The translations under genes and the position numbers were made by a program. A stretch of DNA of 64,000 bases, taken from the NCBI RefSeq assembly GCF_000317285.1, contig NZ_AJLN01000116.1:558001-622000 (forward strand). Reading direction: 5' to 3'. The notes below the pieces were generated by a model. That model was not told where the DNA came from and did no database searches. It saw nothing but the letters and a program-made list of their open reading frames with translations. The DNA is from Chlorogloeopsis fritschii PCC 6912 (GTDB lineage Bacteria; Cyanobacteriota; Cyanobacteriia; Cyanobacteriales; Nostocaceae). This document shows positions 29,241 to 51,600 of the stretch, in pieces. Numbering within the stretch: the stretch's first letter is position 1; every line of letters starts with the position of its first letter.

Positions 29241-29746
29241 AACGTCCTTGTAACAATCCCACTATGAGTAAGGGTGGGTTCCCTTCTGCCAAGCCCCATG
29301 CTTCAAGTCGGCACTAGACGCGTTCGCCGTCAGGCGTTGCGTTAGCTAGCGGCTACCCTCCGGTAAGCCGCAAGGGCGCAGTGGCTCCTCTGCCTCCAGC
29401 ATAGCTGCCTTCTGAATCTAACAACGTATTTAAAAACTCCTGCGAGAGTTAGTCATCGGTAGCTAACTGAACGAGTAAATTCAAAAATTTGGCAAGTGAA
29501 AGGATTTTTATCATCCCTTCTATAGCTTTTGTGATTGAAAACTCAATTCCCAATAACCAATTATCTTGAAAAGAAGGTATCTATTATTACTACATTAGCT
29601 TCCGGTCATGTTCAGCGCTAGAAATTATATTTAGGTATTTGTAAGCCTCGCAGCAGATTTCAATAAATATATTTTGCCTTAATTAATGTATTCAAATCAA
29701 TTCAAGTCAAATCAGTACTCGGAACGAGAGACAGACAACATCCATA

Positions 29747-29824
29747 TGGATAGCCTAGTGGATAATTTTACCTTTTTCAAGGATGATGTCTGCATTAGAG
29801 CGATGTAACCATCAGATAGTATTT
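29747..29824 (+). promoter_or_regulatory. Conserved upstream element, copy A (before the Wzz-like gene)
   Basis: The block begins TGGATAG, then GTGGATAATTTTA, then GGATGATGT in the middle, and ends GTAACCATCAGATAGTATTT. The same order and spacing recurs at 37434-37512 and 42501-42580. The GGATA boxes are 12 bp apart and the final GATAGT box starts 67 bp after the first. The start codon at 29983 is 158 bp further on. It is probably a promoter or activator site shared by polysaccharide genes. Confidence 0.65.
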
Positions 29825-29982
29825 ACAATTGCTATTTGAGTTTAATAATTTCATGAAGACTTACTGATTCAAAGCCTTAAGCTACTAAAGCGTAAGTTTG
29901 GAAGTATAGTATATAGAGGCAATAGCACAACAGCACTTAGGCTCTAGAACTCCGCCAGTTCCCGAAAATAGAAGGATTTTGA

Positions 29983-31413
29983 ATGACTAAGTACATAGAG
30001 GTCTCTGCATACCCTGGCAAATCAATAGCGAACCAAGGGCGTTGGCAAAATTACTTACTTCTAGGCATAGCTACGAATCTAGCCCTTTGGGTATCAGCTT
30101 TACTGTATATAAAGCTCACACCGCCATCGTATACAAGTTATTCGGCTGTTAGTTTGCCTGGAGGAGGTTCAAACGCTAGTTTAAGCATACCAAATATTGG
30201 TCAGGCTTCCTACGAAAGTTCGTCTCCTTATTCTGCTAGTGCTGCTGTAGATCCAAGAGAGAACTACAAGTTTCTTGCTGAGAGCGAACCTGTACTGAAG
30301 GCAGCAGCAGAGCAGCTCGATATGTCTTTGGAAGAGTTTGGAAAACCCCGGTTTAAGGTAGTACCAAACACTACAGTGATGAGTGTTGAGTTCAATGGTG
30401 CTACTCCCGAAGAAGCTCACAAAAAATCCATAGTTTTTTACAAAGCCTTTGAATCAAAGCTTAATCAGCTTAGATCGCAAGAAAGCGTTCAAAGAGAGAT
30501 AGGTTCACAAGTTACTCTTAAATCTTCCCAAAAGAAGTTAGAAATCGCTCAAAAGCGTCTTTCCGATTACAAAGCGCGTTCTGGTTTGAATTCTGAGGCT
30601 CAGATCAGCGATCTGACAAGCAATATTGAGCAGCTACGCAGACAACGAGCGGAAATAGTGGCTCAACAGCAACAAGCTACTGCTCGTTTAAGACAACTGT
30701 CGGCTAATTTAAAAGTATCTTCTGACCAAGCTACAGATGCTTTTAGTCTTCAAACAGATCAGATATTTCAGCAGAATTTAAAAAATTACAGTGATGCTAG
30801 TGCTGCTTTAGTTGTTTTAGAATCGAAGTTTTTACCCGATCATCCTACAGTAGTTGCAGAGAGAGCCAAGCGAGATGCTGCTCAACAAGCATTGCTAGAA
30901 AGAGGACAAAGCCTTTTAGGACGTCCAGCCAGCTTAGAAAACTTAATCAGTCAATTAAACGTAACTACCAACAACAGCAATGGTTCGTCTCGTGAAACTC
31001 TTTATCAACAATTAGTTACAGTCCAGTCTGAGCAAAAAGGACTGACAGCTCAAGCTCAAACGATAGATCGGCAGCTTGCTGAACTTGAGAACAGACTTAA
31101 AAATCTGGCACAGCAGCAGACTACCTTAGATGCTCTCAAACGAGATTTACAAGTGGCGGAAGCAGTCTTTTCTTCCACTTTAACCAGGCTGGATCTTGGC
31201 AAGTCGAATGCCTTTGGTTCTTATCCACTGATTCAGTTGGTTACAGAACCAACATTACCTGATAGTCCCAGTCAGCCAAAGAAAACATATGCTTTTCTGG
31301 GTGCGGCTTTAGGCTCCATTTTTGCAACTACTGGTATAGTATTACTTTGGCAGCGCGATCGCCGCAGGACTTTAATGCGCTGGCGTGAGGAAAAGCCTTT
31401 GATATATGAATAA
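29983..31413 (+). CDS. Wzz/GumC-type polysaccharide co-polymerase (chain-length determinant)
   Basis: A 476-residue inner-membrane protein with two transmembrane segments, near residues 24-44 (LLLGIATNLALWVSALLYIK) and 438-458 (YAFLGAALGSIFATTGIVLL). Between them is a long periplasmic coiled coil (residues about 150-250 and 330-400, rich in Q, L, K and E). The P-D-S-P-S-Q-P-K-K motif before the second segment is the Wzz proline-rich signature. There is no C-terminal tyrosine kinase domain, so it is a PCP-1/GumC-like protein needing a separate kinase or none. It starts the second polysaccharide locus and is preceded by element A. Confidence 0.87.
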   Translation: MTKYIEVSAYPGKSIANQGRWQNYLLLGIATNLALWVSALLYIKLTPPSYTSYSAVSLPGGGSNASLSIPNIGQASYESSSPYSASAAVDPRENYKFLAESEPVLKAAAEQLDMSLEEFGKPRFKVVPNTTVMSVEFNGATPEEAHKKSIVFYKAFESKLNQLRSQESVQREIGSQVTLKSSQKKLEIAQKRLSDYKARSGLNSEAQISDLTSNIEQLRRQRAEIVAQQQQATARLRQLSANLKVSSDQATDAFSLQTDQIFQQNLKNYSDASAALVVLESKFLPDHPTVVAERAKRDAAQQALLERGQSLLGRPASLENLISQLNVTTNNSNGSSRETLYQQLVTVQSEQKGLTAQAQTIDRQLAELENRLKNLAQQQTTLDALKRDLQVAEAVFSSTLTRLDLGKSNAFGSYPLIQLVTEPTLPDSPSQPKKTYAFLGAALGSIFATTGIVLLWQRDRRRTLMRWREEKPLIYE

Positions 31414-31610
31414 ATTGAACATATTCAGTATCTCAAAATTAAGTAGTTTGGCAATTTAATTAGAACCTAGAGTTATTAACTGCTTGGAGTCCAGTAAATT
31501 TCAAAGTCTGTTTTTTAACGGACAGTTGTAGCAGACTTTGTTGTTTTGCCAAAAAAGTTATGGTGCCAATCCATGTCCATCTATTGCTTGTTTGACTAAT
31601 GGAGATCAAG

Positions 31611-32891
31611 ATGAAACCAAATAACTTTCCTGAGAAAGTAATATGGTACAGCATTATAGGCACCTATATCTTCTACTTTACTGGTTTGCTCTATTTTGTT
31701 GCAGCGTTTGTCGGTTGGGTTCTAACATTCTACTTACTTAAAAAGTGGTGGGAACAAACGGAAAGAACTCCCATAGACCAAAGAATTAATGTTCCTTGGT
31801 TAGTCTGGGTGTGGATAGTGTGTATGTTAGCAATGGAAGTTGCCTTAATCATAGGTCATATAGATTTTAATCTGGGAATGGCAACTATGATTAAATCTAC
31901 CTTAGGCTGGGTAAGAGGATGGGCACTTTGGGCACTACTTCCGCTGATTGCTTGTTTAAACGTCCGCCCGCAGCTAGTCTCTCGTGCTGTATGCGTACTT
32001 TGTCTTCAAACTTTAATTCTTTTTCCTTTTTATTTTTCTGCTTACTTACTTCATATACCAACTCCATGGTACACCGTGCCCTTAAATGTATTTGGCGGGC
32101 CACCTGCTGCCTTTACCATCGCACCCTACCTATTTGAAGCAGAAACTGGTACTTTCCGGATTGGATTTTTTGCTCCCTGGGCAGCGGCTATAGGGTTTGT
32201 TGGAGCTGTTTACTTCCCCTTATGTATGTATGAAAAAGACAAACGTTGGCGATGGATTGGGATGGCAGCTTCCTTTTTGATGTGTTTAGTCTCAGGTTCT
32301 CGTTTGGCTGTTTTATCTGTTTTCATAGCTTGGCTGATTCCAGAAGTGATAGCTAATTTACACCGTCCTTTTCTTTTGTTCATAGCTAGTGGTTTAAGTG
32401 TAGTAACTGGTATTTTTTACCAAAATATTCTTGATTCGATTGAATTTTTATATGGAGGGTTTAGAAATCTGCGTAAATCTTCCAGTGAGGTTCGAGAAAA
32501 TCTTGATAGAATTGCTATTTATCGTTGGTCAGATGCACCTATTACAGGACATGGTACTACTGAGCCAGGGCCCCATTTAGTGCAATTTATGCCAATTGGT
32601 ACTCACAATAATTGGACAAGTCTTTTATTTCTTAAAGGAATTGTTGGGTTTTTTGCACTTGCAATTCCGATGGTATTTAGTTTTATTGATTTGGCTGTGA
32701 AGGCACAAAAAAGCTTAGTAGCTAAAATAGCTTTACGAATATTTGTAGCTATATTTTTAAATACATTTGCCGATACGATAGAAGTTTCGGTATATCTGAT
32801 TTGGCCTGCCGTAGTTTTTATGGGTATGGGTTTTCAAGAGCAGCAATCAAAAACAAAAAATACTTATAGTTATTCTAATGCGATGAGCTGA
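31611..32891 (+). CDS. O-antigen ligase-like membrane protein
   Basis: A 426-residue polytopic protein with about ten membrane segments. LMCLVSGSRLAVLSVFIAWL is the conserved block of the O-antigen ligase/Wzy_C superfamily, and YRWSDAPITGHGTTEPGPHL matches its following periplasmic loop, with H-N-N-W further on. It may polymerise or ligate the polymer. GGAG at 31601-31604 sits 6 bp before the ATG at 31611, so I prefer that start to the ATG at 31599. It lies 197 bp after the Wzz-like gene. Confidence 0.8.
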   Translation: MKPNNFPEKVIWYSIIGTYIFYFTGLLYFVAAFVGWVLTFYLLKKWWEQTERTPIDQRINVPWLVWVWIVCMLAMEVALIIGHIDFNLGMATMIKSTLGWVRGWALWALLPLIACLNVRPQLVSRAVCVLCLQTLILFPFYFSAYLLHIPTPWYTVPLNVFGGPPAAFTIAPYLFEAETGTFRIGFFAPWAAAIGFVGAVYFPLCMYEKDKRWRWIGMAASFLMCLVSGSRLAVLSVFIAWLIPEVIANLHRPFLLFIASGLSVVTGIFYQNILDSIEFLYGGFRNLRKSSSEVRENLDRIAIYRWSDAPITGHGTTEPGPHLVQFMPIGTHNNWTSLLFLKGIVGFFALAIPMVFSFIDLAVKAQKSLVAKIALRIFVAIFLNTFADTIEVSVYLIWPAVVFMGMGFQEQQSKTKNTYSYSNAMS

Positions 32892-33029
32892 AAAAATAAG
32901 TTATAAGTAACAATCCAAATAAAAATCACAAAAAATATTAAGTAAATCCAGATAATTATTGTGTTTATTATTAATTATTTAAAGCTTATTTAGGTAATTA
33001 GTATCAAAAGAACCAATATAGTAACTTAT

Positions 33030-34160
33030 ATGACATTATCGCGATCTAAGTTTATACGATTGGGACTTCTTTCTCTGTGCTGTGGACTTACAATTCCCAA
33101 GTGCACTCAGCTTGTAAAGGCAACGAATAGACGTGGATCTACAGTTAAAGCTAGCCGATTAAAGATGCTATCTAAAGGTTTCAATCTTGGACGCTGGCGA
33201 GTAATAGAATTTGCAGATAAAGGAGATGATATAAAAGCAACTCTATTGCAATATAAACGCTTGGGTTTAACTTACACCAGACTACCGATAGTTTTATCTA
33301 GATTTTTTGATGATAAAAATCCCAGTGTTTTAAAGAAAGATTATCTCCCGGCTTTGGATGCGATCGTTCAGATGCACATGAAAGTAGGACTAGGAATTAC
33401 TATATGTCCTTTTGATGCTCCAGATGAATTGTATTCTAATCCTGCTGTAGTTGAAAAGTATGTAGCTTTCTTTAAAGCTTTTGCTGCTCACTTTAGCCGC
33501 ACCAATCCAGAAAAAGTATTTTTGGAAGTTTTAAACGAACCTTCAGCAGAAACTCCTCAAGCTTGGGACAAAATTCAACTGAAACTAATTTCAGCAATTC
33601 GTTCGCAAGCGCCCAATCATACAATCATTGCAAGTTCCAACATGAGGGTTACTAAAAATAATTGGAATAATCTGAGGGGACTCCTGAAGACTCAAATTGT
33701 AAATGACAAAAACGTAGTATATAATTTCCACTTTTATGAGCCGTTTATCTTTACACACCAAGGAGCTGAGTGGGGATGGAAAGCTTTAAAATTTATGAGG
33801 GGAATTCCTTACCCTTCTAATCCTCAAACAGTTGCACCTATATTAAATCAGATTCGAGATCCCCAAGCTAAACGGGCAGTAGAATATTATGGTAAGGAAA
33901 AATGGAATAAAACTAAGTTATCAAAAGAATTGTCATTAGTTGCGAATTGGGCAAAGTCTCATGAAGTTCCTGTTATATGCAATGAATTTGGAGTAATACA
34001 ATCAGCAAGTGTGCCTAGAGATTCCATGCTTCGCTATTTGAAAGATATCAGACAAATCTTAGAATCTCATGGTATTGGTTGGAATCAATGGTTCCGGGTT
34101 AATTTGCGCGATCGCGAAATTATCCAAGCACTTGGACTTAAACCTTTAATAAATCCCTAA
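33030..34160 (+). CDS. Exported glycoside hydrolase family 5 (cellulase-like)
   Basis: A 376-residue protein. An N-terminal export signal (residues 1-22, with S-R-S-K-F-I-R-L-G resembling a weak Tat motif) is followed by a GH5 catalytic barrel: general acid/base E170 in FLEVLNEP and nucleophile E319 in VPVICNEFG, plus the conserved NFHFYEPF His-Tyr strand. GH5 enzymes cut beta-1,4-linked glucans or mannans. Within a polysaccharide export locus it may trim or release the nascent polymer in the periplasm, as cellulases do in cellulose-synthesis clusters. A 364-bp gap follows. Confidence 0.88.
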   Translation: MTLSRSKFIRLGLLSLCCGLTIPKCTQLVKATNRRGSTVKASRLKMLSKGFNLGRWRVIEFADKGDDIKATLLQYKRLGLTYTRLPIVLSRFFDDKNPSVLKKDYLPALDAIVQMHMKVGLGITICPFDAPDELYSNPAVVEKYVAFFKAFAAHFSRTNPEKVFLEVLNEPSAETPQAWDKIQLKLISAIRSQAPNHTIIASSNMRVTKNNWNNLRGLLKTQIVNDKNVVYNFHFYEPFIFTHQGAEWGWKALKFMRGIPYPSNPQTVAPILNQIRDPQAKRAVEYYGKEKWNKTKLSKELSLVANWAKSHEVPVICNEFGVIQSASVPRDSMLRYLKDIRQILESHGIGWNQWFRVNLRDREIIQALGLKPLINP

Positions 34161-34240
34161 TTTCTCTACATCTAGAAGCATCAACTTAAGAAAATAGTAT
34201 TGTAAAGCTTAAAGAGATAAGGTGCTGATTATTACTTAAT

Positions 34241-34262
34241 TTGCACAAATATTGCACAAATA
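34241..34262. repeat. 11-bp tandem repeat between the GH5 and flippase genes
   Basis: TTGCACAAATA occurs twice head to tail (34241-34251 and 34252-34262), one helical turn apart. It lies about 260 bp upstream of the flippase. It suits tandem regulator binding, but slippage could also explain it. The rest of the 34161-34524 gap is A+T-rich, with a small ATGCC/GGCAT hairpin at 34434-34449. Confidence 0.55.
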
Positions 34263-34524
34263 TTTTTGACTTTATCTTGATTTTACTAGATAACGAAAAA
34301 GACTATACTAAATTTATTTTGACTGCTTATTTTTCAGAAAACTATATTAAAAACATAATTTCTTTAACTCGTCTTTGCATTTTCAAGACAGTTTTTCGTT
34401 AAATTAATTTACTTTAATGATAAACTGTACGAGATGCCTGAATTGGCATTTATTATCACATCTTTTCGTCTGTTTATAGCAATAGTTGGAGAAATTTTAG
34501 ATTCATAATTTGTAAGGTAATGAA

Positions 34525-35805
34525 ATGCTAATCAATAAGCTAAAGCAAAAATTAAGCAATCAATTTATTCGCAATGTGGGTTGGCTGGGAGGAGCAGAGT
34601 TAGCGAATCGTATTTTTCGCTTAGGAACAACTTTTACTTTAGCTCGTACATTTAGCCCCCATGATTATGGGTTGGTAGCCATTATTATGACTGCCAATGA
34701 ATTTGCAAAGGTTTTTGCTCTCCGTTCTGGAATTGGCCCTAAGATAATTCAAGCCAATCCAAAAGATTTACCAGCAATCTGCGATACGTCATACTGGCTG
34801 AATTGGGTTTTGTGTGGATCGCTTTTTGTCATTCAGTGTATTGTAGCCTTTCCAATGGCTTGGTTTTACAAGGATCAACAAATTATTTTGCCTATCTGCT
34901 TTAGCGCTTTATTCTACTTGATGTTACCAATGTTCTTGGTTCAAAGCGCACTGATTGAACGAGAAAATCGACTTAAGATAGCAGCTCTATGTAACGTTAT
35001 TCAGTCATTGCTTGTCAACATTTTGACAATTGCTCTAGCTGTAGTGGGATTAGGAATGTGGGCTGTAGTTGTACCCATTGTTCTAACCACTCCAGTATGG
35101 ATAGTAATTATTTTGAAAAATCATTCTTGGCGTCCCCCAAAGTCTTTTAAGCTTGATAAGTGGCGTGAAATCATTGATTTTGGGAAAGATATACTAGGCG
35201 TTGAATTACTAGCTAGACTCAGATCTAATATAGACTACTTAATCATTGGTCGTTTTCTAGGGCTTGATGCACTAGGGATATATTATTTCGCTTTCAATGC
35301 TGGATTAGGAATTAGTCAAAATGTGGTGAACGCATGTACCGCAGCTTTATTTCCTCATCTTTGTGAGGTTAGTGGAAACTTTGAGCGGCTTAAAGAGCGA
35401 TATTTTAGTAGTCTTAAATCTACCGCCACTATTGTAGTTCCGCTCATTCTTTTGCAGTCAAGCTTGGCTCCCTTTTATGTGCCAATTGTTTTTGGCCAAA
35501 AATGGGTATCGGCAGTGCCAATTTTAATACTTATTTGCCTTTCCGCTCTGTCACTTCCTCTTTACAATACAGCTAGTCAATTACTAAACGCGGTGGGGAA
35601 AACCCAGATTAATCTTTACTATAGTTTGATTTATACTGAATTATTCGCTGTAGCTTTGTTAATAGCTGTTAAATTTGGAATCTTATGGGTGGCTGCATCT
35701 GTACTGATTTGTCAGTTAGTGGTTAATTCAATTTTCAGTGTTTGGGCTATTAGAAATATCTTCAGAAAAAGCTCTAATCTTTCATTGACAAATATCAAGT
35801 CATAA
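34525..35805 (+). CDS. Wzx-type oligosaccharide flippase (MOP superfamily)
   Basis: A 426-residue protein with about twelve predicted membrane segments and the MOP-flippase N-terminus (FIRNVGWLGGAELANRIFRL, then TTFTLARTFSPHDYGLVAII). LLARLRSNIDYLIIGRFLGL is the typical mid-protein motif of Wzx/lipopolysaccharide biosynthesis proteins. It should translocate undecaprenyl-linked repeat units across the inner membrane for polymerisation. It converges on the GT61-like gene, with 142 bp between stops. Confidence 0.88.
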   Translation: MLINKLKQKLSNQFIRNVGWLGGAELANRIFRLGTTFTLARTFSPHDYGLVAIIMTANEFAKVFALRSGIGPKIIQANPKDLPAICDTSYWLNWVLCGSLFVIQCIVAFPMAWFYKDQQIILPICFSALFYLMLPMFLVQSALIERENRLKIAALCNVIQSLLVNILTIALAVVGLGMWAVVVPIVLTTPVWIVIILKNHSWRPPKSFKLDKWREIIDFGKDILGVELLARLRSNIDYLIIGRFLGLDALGIYYFAFNAGLGISQNVVNACTAALFPHLCEVSGNFERLKERYFSSLKSTATIVVPLILLQSSLAPFYVPIVFGQKWVSAVPILILICLSALSLPLYNTASQLLNAVGKTQINLYYSLIYTELFAVALLIAVKFGILWVAASVLICQLVVNSIFSVWAIRNIFRKSSNLSLTNIKS

Positions 35806-35947
35806 GAGAAAAGCAGTTTTGCCTTCACACATCAATTTTCATTTGTATGCTGTTTACATTTTCTTGGATCGCCCCTTCTCAACTCAATGCAAGCTATTTT
35901 CAGGTAATTAATGGGGGCGATCGCAAATCCGCTTCTTTTCTTAACCT

Positions 35948-37183
35948 TTACATTAACATATCTATCATAGCAATCAACCTTTCTATATTGACTTGGATGT
36001 TCCCGTCTTCTTTACTCAAATTATTATTATTAGGATTGGTTAAACAACCATACTGAAACCCTAAAGTTCTAGCTATTGCTGCAAAGTTCAGAGTTGGTGG
36101 AGTTTCACCGCAGATTTCAATTACTTTAGCATCTGTACTATAAATAATATTGCTTAATCCTGCTCCATGGGGTGCAATGATAAATTTTGCTTGAGAAAAC
36201 AGGTTTATTTGTTCCGCTAAACTTAACTCTTCTAATATATAACTCCTAAAATTATAGGACTGCAAACACTCATATACTTGAGATTCATTTAAAATCCGTC
36301 TGCCTACTGCTTTTCTTCGAGAAATATAAACATAGGGATGTACATCTTTATTTAAAGTACAATTTTTCCGAATATATTGTTTCAGTGCTTCTGCTACCCA
36401 TCTACAACCCTGAGGAGAAGTATATCCACTATATGTATTATCATCTTGATACAGGTTTCTAAAGCTGGGTACGATCAGTTTTCTAACTAGTGTTTTTTGA
36501 TTTCTCCAAAATATAAAATCTTCGTCTTGATATCCCAAGTACTTAAGTGATTCTATCTGCCACTTATTTGGTTCACTGTGAATAATCAAGGGAACTTTTA
36601 AACCTGTTTTGTTTTCAAAGTATTTTATTCCTTCTAATCTAGTTAAAGTATTTATGACCCACTGATAGTAGTTATTATGATTCCAGCTGTTGATTAGGGA
36701 ACAGGCAATGGGTAATTCTTTAGAGGACTTAGACATATAATATGATGTCAATCCTCTTAAAGAAATACTATCTGCTGTATGCAAATAAACATTGTTACAA
36801 TAATAAGGAACACTGGTTTCTCTGATGAATTCTCCTTGCTCAGTTAAACCAACAGCATATTTTCCTATCAAATAGACGTTATTAATTTCAAAAACATGAG
36901 GACTTGATATCTCACATTCGCGAAACTTTAACTCTTCTTTCACCTCAGAAGGTGTGTCTTCTAAATAATATGCATCCACTAATTTTAAAACTTCTGGGTG
37001 ATGATATTGATAGCAATTATTTGCTCTGGTTATTAAATCTTTACGATTCAATTCTTTTAGTTTTTTTGATTTTAATAAATAATCTATTAAAGGCTTACGA
37101 AATTTAGCTTTAATATTCATTCTGTATAGAATACGATTTAACTCTCTTAAGAATTTAATCTTTTTTAATTGTTTCTTGAGCAT
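35948..37183 (-). CDS. DUF563/GT61-like glycosyltransferase
   Basis: A protein of about 411 residues ending in the GT61 signature region: YVYISRRKAVGRRILNESQV, LEELSLAEQINLFSQAKFII and APHGAGLSNIIYSTDAKVIE (the H-G-A-G-L motif). In the middle, SWNHNNYYQWVINTLTRLEG matches the H-N-Y-Y/W block. GT61 enzymes transfer sugars such as xylose or GlcNAc. I prefer the ATG at 37183; a TTG at 37234 would add 17 residues. It is transcribed opposite to the rest of the locus and diverges from the GT2 gene at 37612. Confidence 0.82.
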   Translation of the reverse strand: MLKKQLKKIKFLRELNRILYRMNIKAKFRKPLIDYLLKSKKLKELNRKDLITRANNCYQYHHPEVLKLVDAYYLEDTPSEVKEELKFRECEISSPHVFEINNVYLIGKYAVGLTEQGEFIRETSVPYYCNNVYLHTADSISLRGLTSYYMSKSSKELPIACSLINSWNHNNYYQWVINTLTRLEGIKYFENKTGLKVPLIIHSEPNKWQIESLKYLGYQDEDFIFWRNQKTLVRKLIVPSFRNLYQDDNTYSGYTSPQGCRWVAEALKQYIRKNCTLNKDVHPYVYISRRKAVGRRILNESQVYECLQSYNFRSYILEELSLAEQINLFSQAKFIIAPHGAGLSNIIYSTDAKVIEICGETPPTLNFAAIARTLGFQYGCLTNPNNNNLSKEDGNIQVNIERLIAMIDMLM

Positions 37184-37433
37184 AATAATAAACCAATTGA
37201 ATTTAGTAAGTTTTATTGCAAAATATTTTTGCAATGAAGAAAAATCTGCGTAATAATTCAGGTTTGATGGGGCGGCTTTATATAATTTGAGTAGAAAATC
37301 TCTAGTTTTATCAAAGTTTGAGCTTCCATTGCCGCTAAGAATCTACTCCAAAACTACTGGTATAGTCTATCAGTGGAGACAGTTTTTGTGAATTTACCGA
37401 TATCGTTAGCGCTTTAGGTACACCACTGCTTAG

Positions 37434-37512
37434 TGGATAGCCAAGTGGATAATTCTCCAATCTCTGGGATGCTATCAGCAAAAGATGTGATCATAGCCTG
37501 CAGGTAGTATTT
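37434..37512 (+). promoter_or_regulatory. Conserved upstream element, copy B (before the GT2 gene)
   Basis: TGGATAG (37434) is followed 12 bp later by a GGATAA box within AGTGGATAATTCT, then GGATGCTAT in the middle, and the block ends ATAGCCTGCAGGTAGTATTT. Layout matches copies A and C; the last box starts 68 bp after the first. It ends 99 bp before the GT2 start codon, in a divergent gap with the GT61-like gene. Confidence 0.63.
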
Positions 37513-37611
37513 CCATACATATATTAATAATTACCCTACGTATTAATGGTACAGCTAAAGTTGTGACTAAAAATTTAAAGTCAGTAACAATTAATGCTAA
37601 GTCGTTAAACA

Positions 37612-38634
37612 ATGAAAAAAGTTTCTGTAATTGTTCCAGTTTATGGAGTCGAGAAGTACATAGCTGCTACAGTCCAATCTGTTTTGGATCAGACATATAA
37701 AAATTTCGAGCTTCTCATTATCGATGATGCTTCTCCTGACAGAAGTGTAGAGATTTGTGAGCAATTTACAGATCCCAGAATTAAAATTATTCGTCAGGAA
37801 AACCGAGGACTCGCTGGAGCAAGAAATACTGGGATTCGTCATGCTCAAGGGGAGTATTTAGCCTTTTTGGACGGAGATGATTTGTGGCTGCCCGAAAAGC
37901 TAGAAAAACACGTTGCTCATCTAGAAAAACTACCAAATGTCGGTGTTAGCTTTAGCCGTTCTGCTTTTGTAAATGAAGCAGGAGAACCTCTAGGCACATA
38001 TCAGATGCCCAAACTTAAGGGTATTACCGTACCCCACTTACTTTGCCGCAATCCTGTTGGTAATGGCTCTGCTCCGGTGATTAGAAGGGAAGTTTTTGAA
38101 GATATAAAGTACCAAGACAATCTCTATGGTCAAGTAGAAGATTTTTATTTTGATGAAAGCTTCCGCCAATGTGAAGATATTGAATGTTGGATTCGGATCG
38201 GGATTCAAACAAATTGGCAGATGGAGGGTATTCCTGAGGCTTTAACCTTGTATCGGGTAAATTCAGGCGGACTGTCATCGAATATGCTCAAACAGTTCGA
38301 TTTTTGGGAAAAAGTCATGGAAAAGACGCGCTCTTATGCCCCAGAAATAGTTGATAGATGGGAGCCTCTAGCCAGAGCTTATATACTGCGGTATTTGGCT
38401 CGTAGGGCAGTACGTTTGCAAGATGGTTCTATGGCTGTAAAAATGATGAATCAAGCTTTGAGAACTAATTGGCGTATTTTATTTGAGGAGCCACGTCGTA
38501 CCCTGTTGACTTTGGCTGCTGCATATCTTCTTGTACTATTACCTGAGTCTTTTTATAACTCCATTGAGTCTGTTGCTTTAAAAAGCACGGGAGCTACTCA
38601 AAAACGTCGTATTTTGCAGGATCAGTCTAGTTAA
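37612..38634 (+). CDS. Glycosyltransferase family 2
   Basis: A 340-residue GT-A enzyme: KVSVIVPVYGVEKYIAATVQ, LLIIDDASPDRSVEICEQF, and YLAFLDGDDLWLPEKLEKHV with the D-G-D-D motif; CEDIECWIRIGIQTNWQMEG is the acceptor-side block. A C-terminal hydrophobic segment (LLTLAAAYLLVLLPESFYNS) may attach it to the membrane. Resembles, and is probably a paralog of, the GT2 at 26732. Element B lies upstream, and about 1 kb without a gene follows. Confidence 0.93.
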   Translation: MKKVSVIVPVYGVEKYIAATVQSVLDQTYKNFELLIIDDASPDRSVEICEQFTDPRIKIIRQENRGLAGARNTGIRHAQGEYLAFLDGDDLWLPEKLEKHVAHLEKLPNVGVSFSRSAFVNEAGEPLGTYQMPKLKGITVPHLLCRNPVGNGSAPVIRREVFEDIKYQDNLYGQVEDFYFDESFRQCEDIECWIRIGIQTNWQMEGIPEALTLYRVNSGGLSSNMLKQFDFWEKVMEKTRSYAPEIVDRWEPLARAYILRYLARRAVRLQDGSMAVKMMNQALRTNWRILFEEPRRTLLTLAAAYLLVLLPESFYNSIESVALKSTGATQKRRILQDQSS

Positions 38635-38692
38635 TCACTGTGAATTTATGATGCGGAAACTGTTGCTCCTTTGCTGGAACAGCAGTTTATGA

Positions 38693-38937
38693 TTAACCGA
38701 TATTGAGCGTGACAGGGGTTGTAGTTTTGTTTACCTCGCCGATCGCCACCACTACACTCTGAGCGAGCTACATTCTAGCTGCCGTTTGTAACTGCCACAC
38801 CCCTTGCATCTTCACAACCAGTTGCTCAACAGCACAAATGCACTAATTTTGATTCTGTAGATCGTGTCTCCAAGCATTGGTGCGATCGCGTTGATTTGAG
38901 GTTCTGCACTTGCCAGTTTGATTTGATAATAGCTATT
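38693..38937 (-). pseudogene. Decayed coding fragment (unidentified)
   Basis: Read on the minus strand, one open frame (from 38937) gives NSYYQIKLASAEPQINAIAP and continues MLGDTIYRIKISAFVLL. A second frame then gives VVKMQGVWQLQTAARM, an in-frame TAG, and LAQSVVVAIGEVNKTTTPVT ending in TAA at 38693-38695. A frameshift and one stop thus break a protein-like sequence of about 80 residues. I do not recognise the family and no start codon is evident. It may be a gene relic. Confidence 0.35.
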
Positions 38938-39655
38938 TCATTTAATTATTTAGTTTGAAGATAATCAGGTTAGAGTAACAAAATCAAATCTTTACAAAAG
39001 CGATATAGTTTTCAGATAGCAAAATCAAATCTTTATAAAAGTGCTCGCATAAAACTGAAAAAACAGTAAAAACTTACCTATTCTTACTGTGTATTAATAA
39101 TATATCAGTAAAAAAAGTATATTATAATTAGTATATTTTTAGTAACTCATATAAATGTAATAAATACTGAAGCAACTACTCCCTCCCACTTACGGGAATT
39201 ATAGACTTTATGTGAATTTATAAAATAACCTCTAGAATTAAGTTGAAAAATTAGGTGTTTTTTTTTACTTTAACTATGTTTTTGTTAGTGTATAAATAAA
39301 GCCTTAAGTTGTTGGCTTTAGATAGATAGTCAAAAAATATCAAGTCATGTAGACGTTTACTTAAACTCTTAGCTTTGTAATAATGTTCCCTATTGTCTAC
39401 ATGATTAGTACTATGATTCTTTTCAACGCAATTTTGCTTGTATCTTCCCATCTCAGACAGCCTAGTTGTAAATGAGGTTATGATTGAAGCACAAACATGA
39501 CTGCGTGTAGTATTATGTACCGATGCGCAGCCTTCCTTAACTAGCTAATGATGATTGTTGCTAAAAACCTGATATTTGCTGAGGTGTTTGTAATAATAAA
39601 CACGCCAGCTGATAATCATTTATTAATTTAATTATGCTCAGAAACCTGTCAGATA
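38938..39655. other. A+T-rich intergenic region before the histidine kinase
   Basis: No gene is supported; a 66-codon minus-strand frame at 39251-39451 lacks coding character. A 24-bp direct repeat is listed separately. The remainder is A+T-rich, with short runs such as AGTATATTATAATTAGTATA near 39116. It probably contains the kinase promoter. Confidence 0.5.
38979..39043. repeat. 24-bp direct repeat with 41-bp period
   Basis: CAAAATCAAATCTTTACAAA begins at 38979 and recurs with T for C near its end at 39020; 22 of 24 bases match over the full copies (38979-39002 and 39020-39043). The 41-bp spacing is close to four helical turns. They may be paired binding sites about 620 bp before the kinase gene. 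Confidence 0.6.
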
Positions 39656-41155
39656 GTGTTGACTATTAAGTTGCTGCGTTGCCTGGCTTTATCGACTCCA
39701 AAAAAGCATTTATTTGCGCCATTATGCACCAGCTTTGTGATACTGGTGTCTTTAATAGTGGTGCAACAATGCTTAAACCTATGGACAGCATTGCTCAGTC
39801 AAGACGCAGCTGAGCGGGTAAATCGTACTCTATTAGTGGAGCGTGAGGCAGAACGTCTGCTGAATGCTGTAATAGATGAGCAAAGAGCATCACCAGGTAA
39901 CCACAACAAAGAAGAAATTGCTGTTCGCAGCAGTCTCAACCGTCTATATTGGCTTTTGCAAAATAACCCTATCCAAATTAAACAACTCGATAGAATTAAA
40001 AACACTTATAATCGCTGGCAAAGCCAGCTAGTTCAAGGAACACTCTCTGACTCTGCCAACGGCAATAGCTTGATAGAAAAGAACCTATTTGATTCTCTAC
40101 GCGCTCAAATTCGGATTTTGCTTATGCACGAAGAGCTGATGATGGGCGAACGCAAACATCGTTTGCAGCAACTTTACCACATTAATACAGTTGTGAACGT
40201 CTTTTGCACAGTAGTTATTGTCGCAGGAATTACCTTAAATCTTCGACTTTTACATCAACGAGTTGAAGTTCCTTTACGTAAGTTAATAAAGGTAGGAGAA
40301 GCTTGGCGCAAAGGTCAAATGGACATTCGATTTGAATATTCATCTCCAGATGAAATCGGTCAATTGACACAAGTTCTCAACGAAATGGTAGCTCAGGCTA
40401 GAGAGCGCCAGCAACGCATTGAGATGCGTAACCAACAGCTTGAGGACATGATTTCTGCTCTTTCCCACGATCTGCGCACTCCCTTGCTTGCAACCCGCGC
40501 TACCTTAGACGGCATGGTTAAAGGAGCTTTTGGGCCTGTAAGCTGTGTGTGGAAAGAAGTATTTCAAGAATTCCGCCAAGCTAACGAAGATCTTCTCAAG
40601 CTTGTTGAAGCCCTATTGGATGTTTCTCGCTATGAAGCTGGTTACGGCACTCGCTTGAACTATGAACCTCTAAACTGGGAAAAGATTTTTGTCAAAGCAA
40701 TTGCCCAGATCAAAGCTACTTCAAAGCACGAGCCAATCCTAATCTATAAAATTTCTCAGCCATTACCAATTGTCTATGGTGATGAAGTAGAGATTAGACG
40801 GGTTGTACAAAACCTACTTGATAACGCTGTTAGAGTGAGTGAACCGAATAAAGAAATTTTCCTTCAGGTAGCATCCTTTGGGAAAAACCAAGTAAAGGTT
40901 TCTGTGCGAGATTATGGTTCAGGAATTGCGCCACAAGAAAAAGAACGGCTCTTCCACCGCTTCATTCAAGGACGAGGGCGACGTGGTAAATCGGGACTTG
41001 GTTTGTACTTGTGTCGTCAAATTATCGAAGCTCACGGAGGTACGATTGGTGTTGAAAGTACCCTCTTTGAGGGTAGTACCTTCTGGTTTACTCTGCCAAT
41101 CGCTAGAATCCAGGGTGCATCCGAGCACAAAAAGCAGATACAGGAGGAGGAGTAA
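39656..41155 (+). CDS. Sensor histidine kinase (TM-sensor-TM-HAMP-HisKA-HATPase)
   Basis: A 499-residue kinase. Membrane segments lie near residues 20-42 and 177-200 and bracket a helical periplasmic sensor. A HAMP linker follows (VPLRKLIKVGEAWRKGQMDI), then HisKA with H271 in ISALSHDLRTP, and HATPase with N box NLLDNAVRVSE, G1 V-R-D-Y-G-S-G-I and G2 GKSGLGLYLC. The start is GTG at 39656 or TTG at 39659; an in-frame stop lies just upstream and no ATG fits. The stop overlaps the response-regulator start (TAATG), so they form a two-component operon. Location between polysaccharide genes suggests a regulatory role there. Confidence 0.92.
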   Translation: MLTIKLLRCLALSTPKKHLFAPLCTSFVILVSLIVVQQCLNLWTALLSQDAAERVNRTLLVEREAERLLNAVIDEQRASPGNHNKEEIAVRSSLNRLYWLLQNNPIQIKQLDRIKNTYNRWQSQLVQGTLSDSANGNSLIEKNLFDSLRAQIRILLMHEELMMGERKHRLQQLYHINTVVNVFCTVVIVAGITLNLRLLHQRVEVPLRKLIKVGEAWRKGQMDIRFEYSSPDEIGQLTQVLNEMVAQARERQQRIEMRNQQLEDMISALSHDLRTPLLATRATLDGMVKGAFGPVSCVWKEVFQEFRQANEDLLKLVEALLDVSRYEAGYGTRLNYEPLNWEKIFVKAIAQIKATSKHEPILIYKISQPLPIVYGDEVEIRRVVQNLLDNAVRVSEPNKEIFLQVASFGKNQVKVSVRDYGSGIAPQEKERLFHRFIQGRGRRGKSGLGLYLCRQIIEAHGGTIGVESTLFEGSTFWFTLPIARIQGASEHKKQIQEEE

Positions 41156-41835
41156 TGCTTGAAAAGCAAGAACACAGAGATGTGCGAATTCTACTTGTTG
41201 ATGACCACACTTTGATACGCCGAGGCATGAAAGGGCAATTTGCTTTAGAGCCTGGCTTTAGTGTAGTTGGAGAAGCAGGTGATGGGCCACAAGCTATTGA
41301 ATTGGCTGCCGAGCTTCAGCCGGATGTGGTTTTGATGGACATCGATCTGCCAGCCATGAATGGAATTACAGCTACACAAAGGATTAAGAGCGATCGCACT
41401 GCCACTCGGATTCTTGCCTTGAGTGCTTTTGATGACGATACGCAGGTGATCGGAATGCTTGCTGCTGGAGCAGATGGTTACTGCCTTAAGACAATTGAAT
41501 GGGAACAGCTCGTTGCTGTGATTCAATTGATCCTCCAGGGCGGTGCTTATCTAGATCCTCACATCGCTCAGAAAGTTGCCCGGATGCTCAAGCCTACTAT
41601 AAGTCATAACCAACCAGCTCCCACATCTGAACCGATCCAACAATCCATTCTCAGCAACCGCGAGCGTGAGATACTCAAACTAATTGCCAAAGGATATTCA
41701 AACCAGGAAATAGCTGAAGAACTCTACCTTTCACTAGGAACAATCAAATCTTACGTGCGGATGATTCTCAACAAACTTAGCGTTGACGATCGCGTACAAG
41801 CAGCAGCTCTGGCTGTGCGTGAAGGTTTAATTTAA
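41155..41835 (+). CDS. NarL/FixJ-family response regulator
   Basis: A 226-residue regulator: receiver domain with acidic pair D16-D17 (LLVDDHTLIRRG), phosphoacceptor D62 in VVLMDIDLPAMNG, Ser/Thr and Lys switch positions in ILALSAFDDDT and GYCLKT, and a C-terminal LuxR helix-turn-helix (LSNREREILKLIAKGYSNQE, then LSLGTIKSYVRMILNKLSV). It overlaps the kinase by one base (TAATG), so it is its likely partner. LuxR-type output implies DNA binding as a dimer. The targets are unknown; the shared upstream elements A-C are obvious candidates. Confidence 0.94.
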   Translation: MLEKQEHRDVRILLVDDHTLIRRGMKGQFALEPGFSVVGEAGDGPQAIELAAELQPDVVLMDIDLPAMNGITATQRIKSDRTATRILALSAFDDDTQVIGMLAAGADGYCLKTIEWEQLVAVIQLILQGGAYLDPHIAQKVARMLKPTISHNQPAPTSEPIQQSILSNREREILKLIAKGYSNQEIAEELYLSLGTIKSYVRMILNKLSVDDRVQAAALAVREGLI

Positions 41836-42128
41836 TAGTAAGAAAGAAATTCCTGTAAACGAGTATATAGTTCTGTAGGTGTAGTAACTAATGATAAATC
41901 CTCATCTGTGGGTTGCTCTGACCACAAAATATAGGGCTGAAATATCCGAAAATCTCCGAGTATTGGCAGACATAAAACAAAAACGTGAGGGGCAAACAGA
42001 GTAACCTCTTCATTGTTTGGAATACCGTAATAGGGAAACACCTCTAAACTCTTTTTTAGACAGTAGCTGCTGACGCGCTGCACGGTGCGAACGTTGCTAC
42101 CAATCACCATAATTCGATGCCTCTCCAT
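41832..42128 (-). CDS. Small protein of unknown function, perhaps receiver-like
   Basis: A product of about 98 residues from the ATG at 42128 (MERHRIMVIGSNVRTVQRVS); an ATG-less extension to 42197 is possible. The start, R-I-M-V-I-G-S-N, and TLFAPHVFVLCLPILGDFRI mimic a receiver beta-strand pattern but lack the acidic pair and phosphoacceptor Asp. It could be a degenerate receiver or unrelated. Its stop overlaps the response-regulator stop by 4 bp, convergently. It is divergent from the WecG-like gene. Confidence 0.5.
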   Translation of the reverse strand: MERHRIMVIGSNVRTVQRVSSYCLKKSLEVFPYYGIPNNEEVTLFAPHVFVLCLPILGDFRIFQPYILWSEQPTDEDLSLVTTPTELYTRLQEFLSYY

Positions 42129-42197
42129 GGCAGCTTTTCCATCGCAACTACAAATTAATTGGATATAACGTGCATACTGGATTTTTGCAAGATACAC

Positions 42198-42866
42198 GAG
42201 AGACTTTTAAAAATAAATAGAGCAGTTGTTAGACAAGTTTTTCGACCTTACGCCTTAATAAATTAAAGATCTTAAAATACAAATTCTTACAAGTTTCCAC
42301 ATTGCTTAGACGACAATTCTTGATTGCACAAGAGCAAAATTTAATAAATTATGCAATTCCTATCAGAGTTATCTAGCATGGTAGTCTTTTTTCACTCAAA
42401 ACTTAAGCTAGTTTCAGAATGCAAACACAGCATTATTATTTGCTGCATACTTTGAATATGATTAGTATGAAGCTTGGATTTTCTCCACACTAGAGCCAAG
42501 CGGATAGTTAAGTGGATAATTTTATCTCTCCATCAGGATGCTGTACATTTCAGACTCTAAGTAGCCATCTGATAGTGTTTTTCATCACTGTCTGAGGAGG
42601 ACACTGTACGAAGATTTGCAGATCGGTATCTCAAATCTTTATCAAGTGGTTATTAGGTGAGGATGTGATGCAAGTATGCCAAAAGTCCCCATATATATGA
42701 TATGAATTTCAATCCTGTTACAGGCAATGATTGTCAAAAAAGCAGTCGAACTGGCTTGATATGAAATTTAAGCACAGAACTGTATGTAAGATTCGGTGGT
42801 AGCATGGCGCTGCCTGTTCTCTGAATTTTGTTATCGCCGAATTTTGGATGATGAGGTTCACATTAT
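42198..42866. other. Divergent intergenic region with element C
   Basis: There is no gene. It holds element C at 42501-42580 and separates the small minus-strand gene from the WecG-like gene. The rest is A+T-rich without clear repeats. Confidence 0.5.
42501..42580 (+). promoter_or_regulatory. Conserved upstream element, copy C (before the WecG-like gene)
   Basis: CGGATAG (42501) is followed 12 bp later by a GGATAA box within AGTGGATAATTTTA, then GGATGCTGT in the middle, and the block ends GTAGCCATCTGATAGTGTTT. The last box starts 69 bp after the first, matching copies A and B. It ends 286 bp before the start codon at 42867. Confidence 0.65.
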
Positions 42867-43739
42867 ATGGCAGACCGAGTTAGGTTTCTCAACACCTTTT
42901 TTGATCGTACGTCTTCGGATGAGGCAACTGAATCATTACCAGCAGGGTTAGTAGCTCGCCAGAATGATTCTATCTATCAAGATTTAAATGACACAGAAAA
43001 AGTTAAGCTTCTAAATATAGAAATAGACAATTTATCTAAGGTGGAAGTTTTACAGAATCTCAAAAGTGGCGTTGTATTTACGCCTAATGTAGATCACCTG
43101 ATGAAATTGCAGAATGATCGAGAATTTCTCGATGTTTACAGCCGTGCTGAATATAAACTGTGTGATAGTCAAATTCTGCTTTATGCATCTCGATTCTTAG
43201 GTAAGCCAATCAAGGAGAAAATTTCCGGTTCAGATTTGTTTCCAGCTTTTTATAACTTCCACAAAAAAAATGAACGTATCAAAATATTCTTGTTAGGTGC
43301 AGGTGAAGGTGTAGCTTATAAAGCTCAACAGAATATAAATGCTAAAGTTGGCAGAAATATTGTTGTAGGTTCACACTCGCCTTCATTTGGATTTGAACAA
43401 AACGAAAAGGAGTGTCAGGAAATAGTTGAGATTATCAAGCGATCCGGAGCAACAGTCTTGGCAGTTGGCTTAGGTGCACCTAAACAAGAAAAATGGATAT
43501 ATAGGTATAAAGACCAATTACCTAATATTAAAATCTTTTTGGCGATCGGTGCTACTATCGATTTTGAAGCAGGTAACATCAAGAGATCTCCCAAGTTTAT
43601 TAGTAATCTGGGATTAGAATGGTTGTATAGAATGGTAGCCGAACCCAAAAGATTGTGGAAAAGATACTTGATAGAAGATTTGCCTTTTTTCTGGCTAATT
43701 TTACAACAAAAACTGAATTTCTATAACAATGGTGAGTAG
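42867..43739 (+). CDS. WecG/TagA/CpsF-family glycosyltransferase (GT26)
   Basis: A 290-residue enzyme. After a nonconserved 40-residue leader come FTPNVDHLMKLQNDREFLDV (the T-P-N-x-D-H substrate motif), YKLCDSQILLYASRFLGKPI with the catalytic-type Asp, VLAVGLGAPKQEKWIYRYK, and GNIKRSPKFISNLGLEWLYR. Members transfer N-acetylmannosamine-type or glucose residues to lipid-linked GlcNAc-type acceptors as peripheral membrane enzymes. The C-terminal M-V-A-E-P-K-R-L-W-K-R-Y is the membrane-binding tail. Element C upstream links it to the locus. A strong terminator follows. Confidence 0.94.
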   Translation: MADRVRFLNTFFDRTSSDEATESLPAGLVARQNDSIYQDLNDTEKVKLLNIEIDNLSKVEVLQNLKSGVVFTPNVDHLMKLQNDREFLDVYSRAEYKLCDSQILLYASRFLGKPIKEKISGSDLFPAFYNFHKKNERIKIFLLGAGEGVAYKAQQNINAKVGRNIVVGSHSPSFGFEQNEKECQEIVEIIKRSGATVLAVGLGAPKQEKWIYRYKDQLPNIKIFLAIGATIDFEAGNIKRSPKFISNLGLEWLYRMVAEPKRLWKRYLIEDLPFFWLILQQKLNFYNNGE

Positions 43740-44113: not shown

Positions 44114-44410
44114 TTAAGGCTTCGTAACCACGCTTACGGGGCCATTGACTAAAGTTTGACATGCAAGGCGATAATTAGCAGGCTTTTTTTTCAATAAACG
44201 GTTTTCTACCTCTGTAGGAGGCGAAAGATTTTCCCTTCCTTCAACAATTTCGACGATGCAGGTGCCACATTGACCGTAGCCACCACAATTCATCATCTTT
44301 CCCCAAATTTTATAAATGTCAATGCCATTTTCTAAAGCTTTGAGTCTCAGATTAGCACCATCCGCAGCTATAACTTCTTTATTCTCTTTAACGAATTTTA
44401 TGTTACCCAT
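44114..44410 (-). CDS. 2Fe-2S ferredoxin-like protein
   Basis: A 98-residue protein with the plant-type 2Fe-2S cysteine pattern: C42, C48 and C51 in [11 protein letters not shown] and C84 in YRLACQTL (C-x5-C-x2-C...C). The C-terminal cysteine spacing and charge differ from photosynthetic PetF (the loop has G-G-Y-G-Q in place of the usual R-A-G-A/S), so a different electron donor role is likely. It lies directly upstream of psbM on the same strand, an arrangement I recall in other cyanobacteria, which hints at a photosystem-related role. Confidence 0.9.
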
Positions 44411-48635: not shown

Positions 48636-51600
48636 TTATCGCTTGACCTCTTCATCTTCCACTGCTCCTAAAGCTTTGAGCGTGGCAATAGTTGCTGCGG
48701 TTAAGCCTGTAACGCCCGTAATGTTCATGCCTTCATAAGGTCTTGGAATTCTCAATGTTTTGAGACATTCTCCTGTCTGAACATTCCACAACTTAATGGT
48801 TTCATCTACGCTGCCACTGATCAACGTTTGCCCATCAGGACTGAAGGTAACTGAACGTACCCAGCTAGTATGTCCTGTTAAAGTTTTAAGGCATTCTCCA
48901 GAGTTAACATCCCATAGTTTGACAGTTTCATCCTGACTTCCGCTAGCTAAGAAATTACCTTGAGGACTAAAAGCAACCGAAAATACCCACATCGTGTGTC
49001 CCTGTAAAGTGTTGATGCACTTTCCATCGATATCCCAAAGCTTAAGTAGACCGTTATCATGACCGCTAGCCAGCATTGTTCCATTAGGACTAAAAGCGAC
49101 TGCCATCACCTTACTATCAATTTCTGGTAAGGTTTTGAGGCATTTTCCCGTGCCGCTTTCCCACAATTTTATAGTTTTGTCATCACTACAACTAGCAAGT
49201 ATCAAACTGTCAGGACTAAAGGCAACTGACCAAACATAATTGGCATGACCTTGCAAAACTTTTAAGCACTCGCCAGTGCAAATATTCCAAAGCCTTATAG
49301 TTGAATCTTGAGCACCGCTGGCTAGAATCTTACCTTGAGGACTGAAAGTTAGTGCCCAGATCAAGCCGTTGATATGTCCTTGTAACCTCCTCAGACACTG
49401 ACCAGTAACGACATCCCAGAGTCTAATGGTTTCGTTATCCCCACTAGCTACCATTTGACCATCAGGACTGAAGGCGACTGACCAAACCCACTTGTTATGC
49501 CCCTGTAATGTCTTGAAGCATTGACCAGTTTGAATATTCCAAAGTCTTACTGTTGAGTCAAAACTTCCACTGGCTACCATTTGACCATCAGGGCTACAGG
49601 CAATTGACCAGATGGCACTGGTGTGTCCTTTCAAGGTCTTGAGGCACTGACCGCTCTTGATATCCCAGAGTTTTACAGTTTGGTCAAAACTCCCACTGGC
49701 TAAGATTTGACCATCAGGACTAAAGGCAACTGACCAGACCAAATCAGTATGTTCCTGCAACGTCTTACAACATTGACCAGTTTGAATATTCCAAAGTCTT
49801 ACTGTTGAATCAAAACTCCCACTGGCTATCATTTGCTCATCAGGACTACAAGAAATTGACAAAATGCCGTTTTCGTGTGCCCGCAATGTCTCAAAGCATT
49901 CACCCGTACTAACATTCCAACGCCTCATCGTGCTGTCTAAACTACCACTAGTTAGTGTCTGGCCATCTGAGTTAAAGACAACTGACCAAACCCAATTAGT
50001 ATGTCCTTGCAAAGTCTTATAGCATTCACCCGTACTAACATTCCAGAGCTTGATTGTGTAGTCAAAACCGCCACTAGCTAAAGTTTGACCATCAGGACTA
50101 AAGGCGACTGACCAAACCCAATTAGTATGTCCTTGCAACGTCTTAAGACATTCACCTGTACAAACATCCCAGAGTTTTACAGTTTGGTCATTACTTCCAC
50201 TGGCTACGATTTGACCATCAGGACTAAAGGTAACTGACCAAATCAAATCGGTGTGTCCCTTAAAGGTCTTAAGGCATTGACCTGTCCTAACATCCCAAAG
50301 TCTTACGGTTCGGTCAAAACTGCCACTGACTAGTTTTTGACCATCGGGACTAAAATCAAGGGACGGTATCCACATGCTTTTGTCATGTCCCTCCAACGTC
50401 AAAAGAGGTTGAGCATCCTGAACTCTGAATAGACGAATCTGACCATGAGTGTCACCTGCTGCGAGAATTTTGCTATCTGGACTGAAGGCGACAGAATTAA
50501 TTCCACTGAAACATTGGGAAAAAAGTGATTTAGTAAACTCACAATAAGCAAAGTTGACTTCAGCCAAATTCATACCTTGAAGATAAGTTTGCCAAATCGC
50601 CAAATTGGAAAAATCATAACCTCTTAAATCCGTTTTCAGTTGGCAGAGGAGATTGAGAACATTCCCTGCTGCATATCCTAATTTGAGTGAAGATGTGCGC
50701 AACTTAGCGAGAATCTGAGTTAGTTGAGTTTCAAGACGGCTTTGGTTCCCCAAAATATTGATTAACTTCTTGATCAGAGGTTGGAGAATCAAACGAATTT
50801 GAGCTTCCCTGATATAGTCTTTTGCTAAAGCTTTGAGCAAAGCATAGTTGTTAAACAGTTCAATGTTCTGAGTCTTAATTTCTTCAGAAACTTGTTGAAT
50901 AAATACTTCTGTTATGTACTCGATTAGCACAGGTTGGAGCGTGAATGCTGCTGCGCTTCTTTCCAGAGGTAATCGTCGTGTTAGCGATTGCAGCGTATCT
51001 GTGACTCTTTCTTTAGCTTCTGGTACGAGAATATCGTCTTTGAGTTCTGAAAGTGAAATTGGCTCGCGATTAATTGCCAGCCAGTATATAATTTCTTTTT
51101 CTGGCTCTGAAGTGCGCTCAAAATGCCAGTTTAACAAATCTCGCAAATCATCAAAAACTGGTTTTCCTTCTTGGAGAAATTGAGAAATATTTCCTCCAAA
51201 AACCTCTTGAAGATGATTTGCAGCCAGTTCTAGGGCTAAAGGATTGCCATTATAGAATTTAATGAGTGTTTGCCATTCTGCATCTGAGCCAGAAAAATCT
51301 CCTATTTCTTGAAAAATTTTTTGTCCATCTAAATAATTTAAACCGCCTAATTCAAGTAAATGAACAGGATGGGTTTTGCCAGCCATTCTTACCAAATTGT
51401 GAGGTTTTTCCCGACTGGTAAGCAGCAAGCAGCTTTGATGGGGGACTTCTCCAACTTGCTGGAAAAGTTGACCGTATGCTTCATATCCCTGGCGATATAG
51501 CCCAGCGCGTGAAGCGAAGCGATCGCTTTTAAGCGAATCGCCTTTTTGTAAAATCGTCTCCACATTATCCAGAATCAGCAAACAGTGGTGTGCTTGTAAA

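Follow-up and report, generated by a model that had tools for sequence, protein, structure and literature searches.

The window analysed here is a 64,000-nucleotide stretch of the Chlorogloeopsis fritschii PCC 6912 genome (contig NZ_AJLN01000116.1, positions 558,001 to 622,000; all coordinates below are those of the window), and it contains a polysaccharide gene cluster in which three plus-strand genes are each preceded by a copy of the same upstream element. The three genes encode a Wzz/GNVR-like polysaccharide chain-length protein (29983–31413), a family-2 glycosyltransferase (GT2; 37612–38634) and a WecG/TagA/CpsF-type glycosyltransferase (42867–43739). The cluster also encodes, on the plus strand, a sensor histidine kinase (39656–41155) and a NarL/VraR-type response regulator (41155–41835), the proposed binder of the element; the two genes overlap in that order, and a small minus-strand gene with a predicted pseudo-receiver fold (41832–42197) lies tail-to-tail with the regulator gene. 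The kinase has the domain order CHASE3-HAMP-HisKA-HATPase_c, with the phospho-acceptor domain intact (CHASE3 is weak in the window protein and clear in its orthologues); the regulator is a receiver plus a LuxR/GerE helix-turn-helix (Pfam Response_reg and GerE), and its nearest solved structures are VraR and NarL.

The three copies of the element, all on the plus strand, are E1 (29739–29820; 81.7 bits, E = 1.7e-22), which is 5' of the Wzz-like gene, E2 (37426–37508; 65.3 bits, E = 2.0e-17), which is 5' of the GT2 gene, and E3 (42493–42576; 88.9 bits, E = 9.3e-25), which is 5' of the WecG-type gene. An earlier sequence-only reading of this DNA had described ~79-bp blocks with a GGATAG box, a GGATAA box 12 bp later, a GGATG box 32–34 bp after the first and a GATAGT/GGTAGT box 67–69 bp after the first; direct reading confirms this order in all three blocks, and the 20-base tails quoted for them match the sequence. 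The boxes start at 29748 (GGATAG), 29760 (GGATAA, +12), 29781 (GGATG, +33) and 29815 (GATAGT, +67) in E1; at 37435, 37447 (+12), 37467 (+32) and 37503 (GGTAGT, +68) in E2; and at 42502, 42514 (+12), 42536 (+34) and 42571 (GATAGT, +69) in E3. The element exists as described, but it is longer: it begins ~9–14 bp 5' of the first box and conservation extends to a −10-like stretch, ~130 bp in all. The parts of E1 are dyad A (CATCCATATGGATA, 29739–29752), dyad B (TAGCCTAGTGGATA, 29751–29764), box 3 (GGATG, 29781–29785) and box 4 (TAACCATCAGATAGT, 29806–29820); those of E2 are dyad A (37426–37439), dyad B (TAGCCAAGTGGATA, 37438–37451), box 3 (GGATG, 37467–37471) and box 4 (TAGCCTGCAGGTAGT, 37494–37508); and those of E3 are dyad A (42493–42506), dyad B (42505–42518), box 3 (GGATG, 42536–42540) and box 4 (TAGCCATCTGATAGT, 42562–42576). 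All three copies lie in divergent gaps and are oriented toward the plus-strand genes, as had been claimed; the divergent setting is incidental, that is, the orientation of the upstream neighbour is random for copies elsewhere (45 opposite, 41 same).

The core of the element, GGATAGNNNAGTGGATAATT, has exactly three matches in the window and none in 100 dinucleotide-preserving shuffles of it; these three are also its only exact matches in the whole 7.75-Mb genome, so a chance origin was rejected. When two mismatches are allowed, this genome yields four more, chance-like matches (a reversed control pattern gives one).

We surveyed 218 genomes of the same family and, phylum-wide, 386 evenly drawn genomes. 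At the loci returned by a core search of the family genomes, the whole array is conserved, beyond the core alone; core matches that lack the rest of the array were dropped (with one mismatch, such as L012, L024, L027 and L032–L036; with two, L004–L007). A model of the sequence alone gives strong matches in 39 of the 218 family genomes, mostly clustered at one locus per genome (matches at E ~0.001–0.1 were counted as noise), and a second model, R2, made from 48 diverse copies, gives 110 matches at E <= 0.001 in 40 genomes. In the C. fritschii genome, R2 identifies a fourth, degenerate copy on another contig (G000:C135:27087, E = 5e-8) that precedes the gene for a 393-residue protein weakly similar to the glucuronyl C5-epimerase and GH88 families.

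The internal spacing of the array is nearly invariant: among 72 distinct full-length copies from related cyanobacteria, the box 1–box 2 distance is 12 bp in 72/72, the box 1–box 3 distance is 32–35 bp in 69/72 and the box 1–box 4 distance is 67–71 bp in 71/72. Placement was counted for 88 copies, taken from 40 fetched cluster regions plus the window; a same-strand gene follows 85 of them, and none is inside an open reading frame (ORF), even though coding sequence makes up 80% of these regions. The downstream genes include orthologues of the three window targets (Wzz, 23 copies; WecG, 22; GT2, 16), a gene for a 404-residue protein (7) and others. The mean identity of copies within a genome is 56%, that is, the same as between copies preceding different genes in different genomes (56%) and lower than between copies preceding the same target across genomes (61–71%); the copies are therefore not recent duplicates but old and separately kept. 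The spacing, the placement and the 56% identity thus strongly support the sequence-only proposal of a candidate regulon that is under spacing constraint and did not arise by recent duplication; placement is not random, no copy is in a gene, and conservation upstream of orthologues is present, so none of the outcomes that had been named as evidence against this proposal occurred. In two genomes (L112:9456-16301 and L084:7570-10344), the array precedes AMP-binding/acyl carrier protein or polyketide-synthase-type genes, not polysaccharide genes.

The symmetry of the element points to the type of protein that may bind it. We scanned 50 diverse copies for palindromes with all centres and gaps, and the strongest include a dyad at each of boxes 1 and 2; two overlapping copies of TAkCCA-NN-TGGATA, in the same 12-bp register as these boxes, make up the core, which resembles a NarL operator. 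The best dyad is reached by 1/300 column-permuted controls and the 12-bp-spaced pair by 0/300, and the 12-bp unit repeats with 7.8/12 identities versus 2–3 at other offsets. The target promoters contain inverted repeats with a 2-bp gap, whose arms were scored over 6 bp, the full 7-2-7 form not being established. Box 4 reads TAgCCATcAGATAGT, and box 4 of genome G390, TATCCA-AT-TGGGAG, is the same dyad. Directly 3' of box 4 in E1 is a promoter-like sequence, TTTACA-16-AATAAT (29822–29849, plus strand), a candidate for the Wzz-like unit; it is tied for the best match (10/12) in a region that overall has no excess over shuffles and is suggestive only. If this promoter is used, box 4 of E1 would be centred ~43 bp upstream of the start, a position that would make activation by contact with RNA polymerase the likeliest sign of control.

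An orthologue of the response regulator (76–96% identity) is found in 37 of the 218 family genomes. Thirty-seven genomes have both the regulator and strong element matches, two have the element only, none has the regulator only and 179 have neither. In the phylum-wide survey, a protein search for the regulator and a search for the element give the same five genomes; this agreement is not fully independent, because the model included sequences from G000, G034 and G205 and from a near-identical relative of G222, though none from G390. Mapping of the clusters places the kinase–regulator pair next to the array also at loci with different cargo genes, and elements that are unlinked to the regulator precede sugar-related genes; e.g., in G034 (PCC 7702) the regulator is at 4.10 Mb and further elements are at 0.37 Mb and 1.43 Mb, the latter preceding a glycosyltransferase gene. 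The element recurs in ~40 cyanobacterial genomes, almost exclusively those that also carry one sensor–regulator pair, so it is most likely the site through which that pair controls the polymer genes; co-occurrence and operator symmetry strongly support the linked two-component pair, one of the two candidate regulators suggested previously. Two other genes recur by the pair in many clusters and were not seen in the window: one encodes a GAF-domain histidine kinase of ~410 residues (L110:12408-13646) and the other a Sortilin/BNR-repeat protein of ~706 residues (L115:6486-8609).

Our interpretation, to which we assign a probability of roughly 0.83, is that each block comprises an operator array and a promoter region, by means of which the two-component system encoded in the cluster controls its polysaccharide genes. 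The membrane kinase would sense a signal and phosphorylate the regulator, which would then dimerise; the dimer would bind the overlapping dyads of boxes 1 and 2, which are 12 bp apart. It would probably also occupy box 3, which is of the GGATGCTGTC type, and box 4, which lies a short distance upstream of the core promoter; RNA polymerase would be recruited to the promoters of the Wzz, GT2 and WecG genes. The predicted regulon is new but of a known kind (NarL/FixJ-type two-component control) and is well supported by the comparative evidence; we found nothing in the literature on this operator sequence with cyanobacterial response regulators or on a LuxR-family regulator of Nostoc polysaccharide clusters.

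Several observations weigh against this interpretation. In the two element-only genomes (G087 and G181), both assembled in many contigs, the best regulator homologue is only 45% identical, and G035 contains a paralogous, 72%-identical kinase–regulator pair with no element nearby. The co-occurrence statistics are inflated by shared descent and physical linkage, neither of which their p-values take into account, and several of the copies used to train R2 came from genomes that were scored afterwards. A promoter scan gave no clear core-promoter match for E2 and E3. The second pair in G035 (L201:23-2178) adjoins a sugar-transferase-like gene.

The same co-occurrence might be observed if the element were the operator of another DNA-binding protein and the linked response regulator merely travelled with the cluster: linkage alone could produce it, G087 and G181 carry elements with no regulator orthologue found, and the pair has other recurrent neighbours, e.g., the GAF-type kinase. 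However, in the fetched loci it is the regulator that is the DNA-binding protein recurring with the element, also outside the family with different cargo (other co-occurring regulators were not searched for systematically), cluster-unlinked elements occur in genomes that possess the regulator, and the geometry of the dyads is NarL-type; we consider this explanation unlikely. The other candidate suggested previously was the sigma-factor cascade of Nostoc hormogonia, in which case the boxes would be promoter elements of SigJ, SigC or SigF. In favour of such a cascade, the host is of the Nostoc type and the targets are polysaccharide genes, and there is no published SigC or SigF consensus against which the sequence could be judged (PMC6495340). 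The published SigJ J-box, GGGaAtacT, is an extended −10 element (PMC6495340) and is described as widespread in cyanobacteria; the element, in contrast, is in 39/218 family genomes, no J-box-like site (<=2 mismatches) is present in the three upstream regions, and a conserved array of well over 70 bp with repeated dyads is unlike a sigma promoter. The SigJ proposal is thus not supported, and we regard an alternative sigma factor as very improbable.

A long conserved block before polysaccharide genes might instead be a structured leader RNA, that is, a riboswitch or antitermination element, and boxes 3 and 4 are mutually inverted, with possible base pairing in 83% of cells if G-U counts as a pair. 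The pairing does not covary, however (83.0% versus 82.8% with shuffled partners), RNAalifold gives no compensated pair, folding is unremarkable (z-scores −2.1, −0.3 and +0.6), and there is no Rfam match; a leader RNA has, in our estimate, only a slight chance of being correct.

Orthologues of the regulator outside the family came from a protein search in named genomes. Just past the regulator, the element or its core occurs in Pleurocapsales LEGE 06147, a Coleofasciculus metagenome-assembled genome (MAG), Aliterella, Gloeocapsopsis and a Pseudanabaenaceae MAG; in a Leptolyngbyaceae MAG it is ~3 kb from the regulator on the opposite strand, and in a Gloeobacterales MAG the regulator and the small pseudo-receiver gene are followed by a GGATAGACATGTGGATATCC core (a loose dyad scan of single loci, <=3 mismatches, gives mostly chance matches and was used only for this core). 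In L136, L141, L146 and G390, the array precedes a different small gene (DITEQIYQLVKQW...; L136:10956-11309, L146:11145-11531 and L212:1649-1906), which has no Pfam match (the L136 copy was scanned), and homologues of the window polysaccharide genes were not found near the array; this suggests that the polysaccharide genes joined the array later and that the DITEQIYQLVKQW... gene may be an older target.

The gene that is tail-to-tail with the regulator gene is kept in nearly all of the regulator loci, outgroups included. Its protein has a receiver-like predicted fold (AlphaFold predicted local distance difference test score 88), Foldseek places it nearest to receiver domains and lists the CikA pseudo-receiver within its first twelve matches, and by our own reading of the sequence it lacks the acidic phosphorylation pocket; as modelled, it may be a third signalling component. 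A tentative proposal, to which we give somewhat less than even odds, is that kinase, regulator, pseudo-receiver (as the third signalling part) and array together make up a single portable control cassette, old among cyanobacteria, in which the array precedes the DITEQIYQLVKQW... gene in outgroups and has been re-wired in Nostoc relatives to polysaccharide and sometimes to AMP-binding/polyketide-type operons.

The proposed system resembles those of NarL (E. coli ogt), VraR (vraSR) and LiaR/CesR in the regulator family (NarL/FixJ), in dyadic operators with a 2-bp gap and in having several sites per promoter, one of them by the −35 region. As a dimer, NarL recognises 7-2-7 inverted repeats, and it activates ogt from sites at −44.5 and −77.5 (PMC7419079); at vraSR, VraR covers −75 to −50 and −46 to −26 (PMC6612188); and the LiaR/CesR operator is TCAGHCTnnAGDCTGA (PMC4447274), which is unlike TAkCCA-NN-TGGATA. 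The system described here differs from these also in its pair of overlapping dyads, which are offset by a constant 12 bp, its CHASE3-HAMP-HisKA partner kinase and the attached pseudo-receiver gene. Orthology with VraSR/LiaSR was rejected, as the regulator is 36–42% identical to those of Firmicutes (including staphylococci and enterococci) and the operator differs; no element was found near the Firmicutes regulator loci. Like XssS/XssR/XssQ in the synechan cluster of Synechocystis 6803, the window has a two-component pair inside a polysaccharide cluster and a motif common to several genes (PMC8205485). The Synechocystis motif is AAGTTXXAC and its binding protein is XssQ, a STAND protein (PMC8205485), whereas the array described here is long and dyadic, and its association is with the response regulator itself. 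The scan of the cluster genes reported no STAND protein. The SigJ J-box promoters of Nostoc hormogonia are likewise cis-elements in filamentous cyanobacteria, but they differ in sequence, length and distribution.

The transcriptional control of large Nostoc-type polysaccharide clusters, which matter for sheaths, desiccation survival, biofilms and soil crusts, is poorly known; this analysis names a regulator and predicts both its operator and a list of its targets in ~40 species, and it provides a clear example of target genes changing under an operator array whose internal spacing was preserved. The cluster in the window also contains genes for a 430-residue protein without a Pfam family, a GH5 protein, a Wzx-type flippase (34525) and a GT61 protein (35948, minus strand). 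Further along, a ferredoxin-like ORF of 98 residues (44114–44410, minus strand) separates the WecG-type gene from the next plus-strand ORF, and the gene for a WD40-repeat protein of 1199 residues (48636–52235, minus strand) adjoins a queuine tRNA-ribosyltransferase gene.

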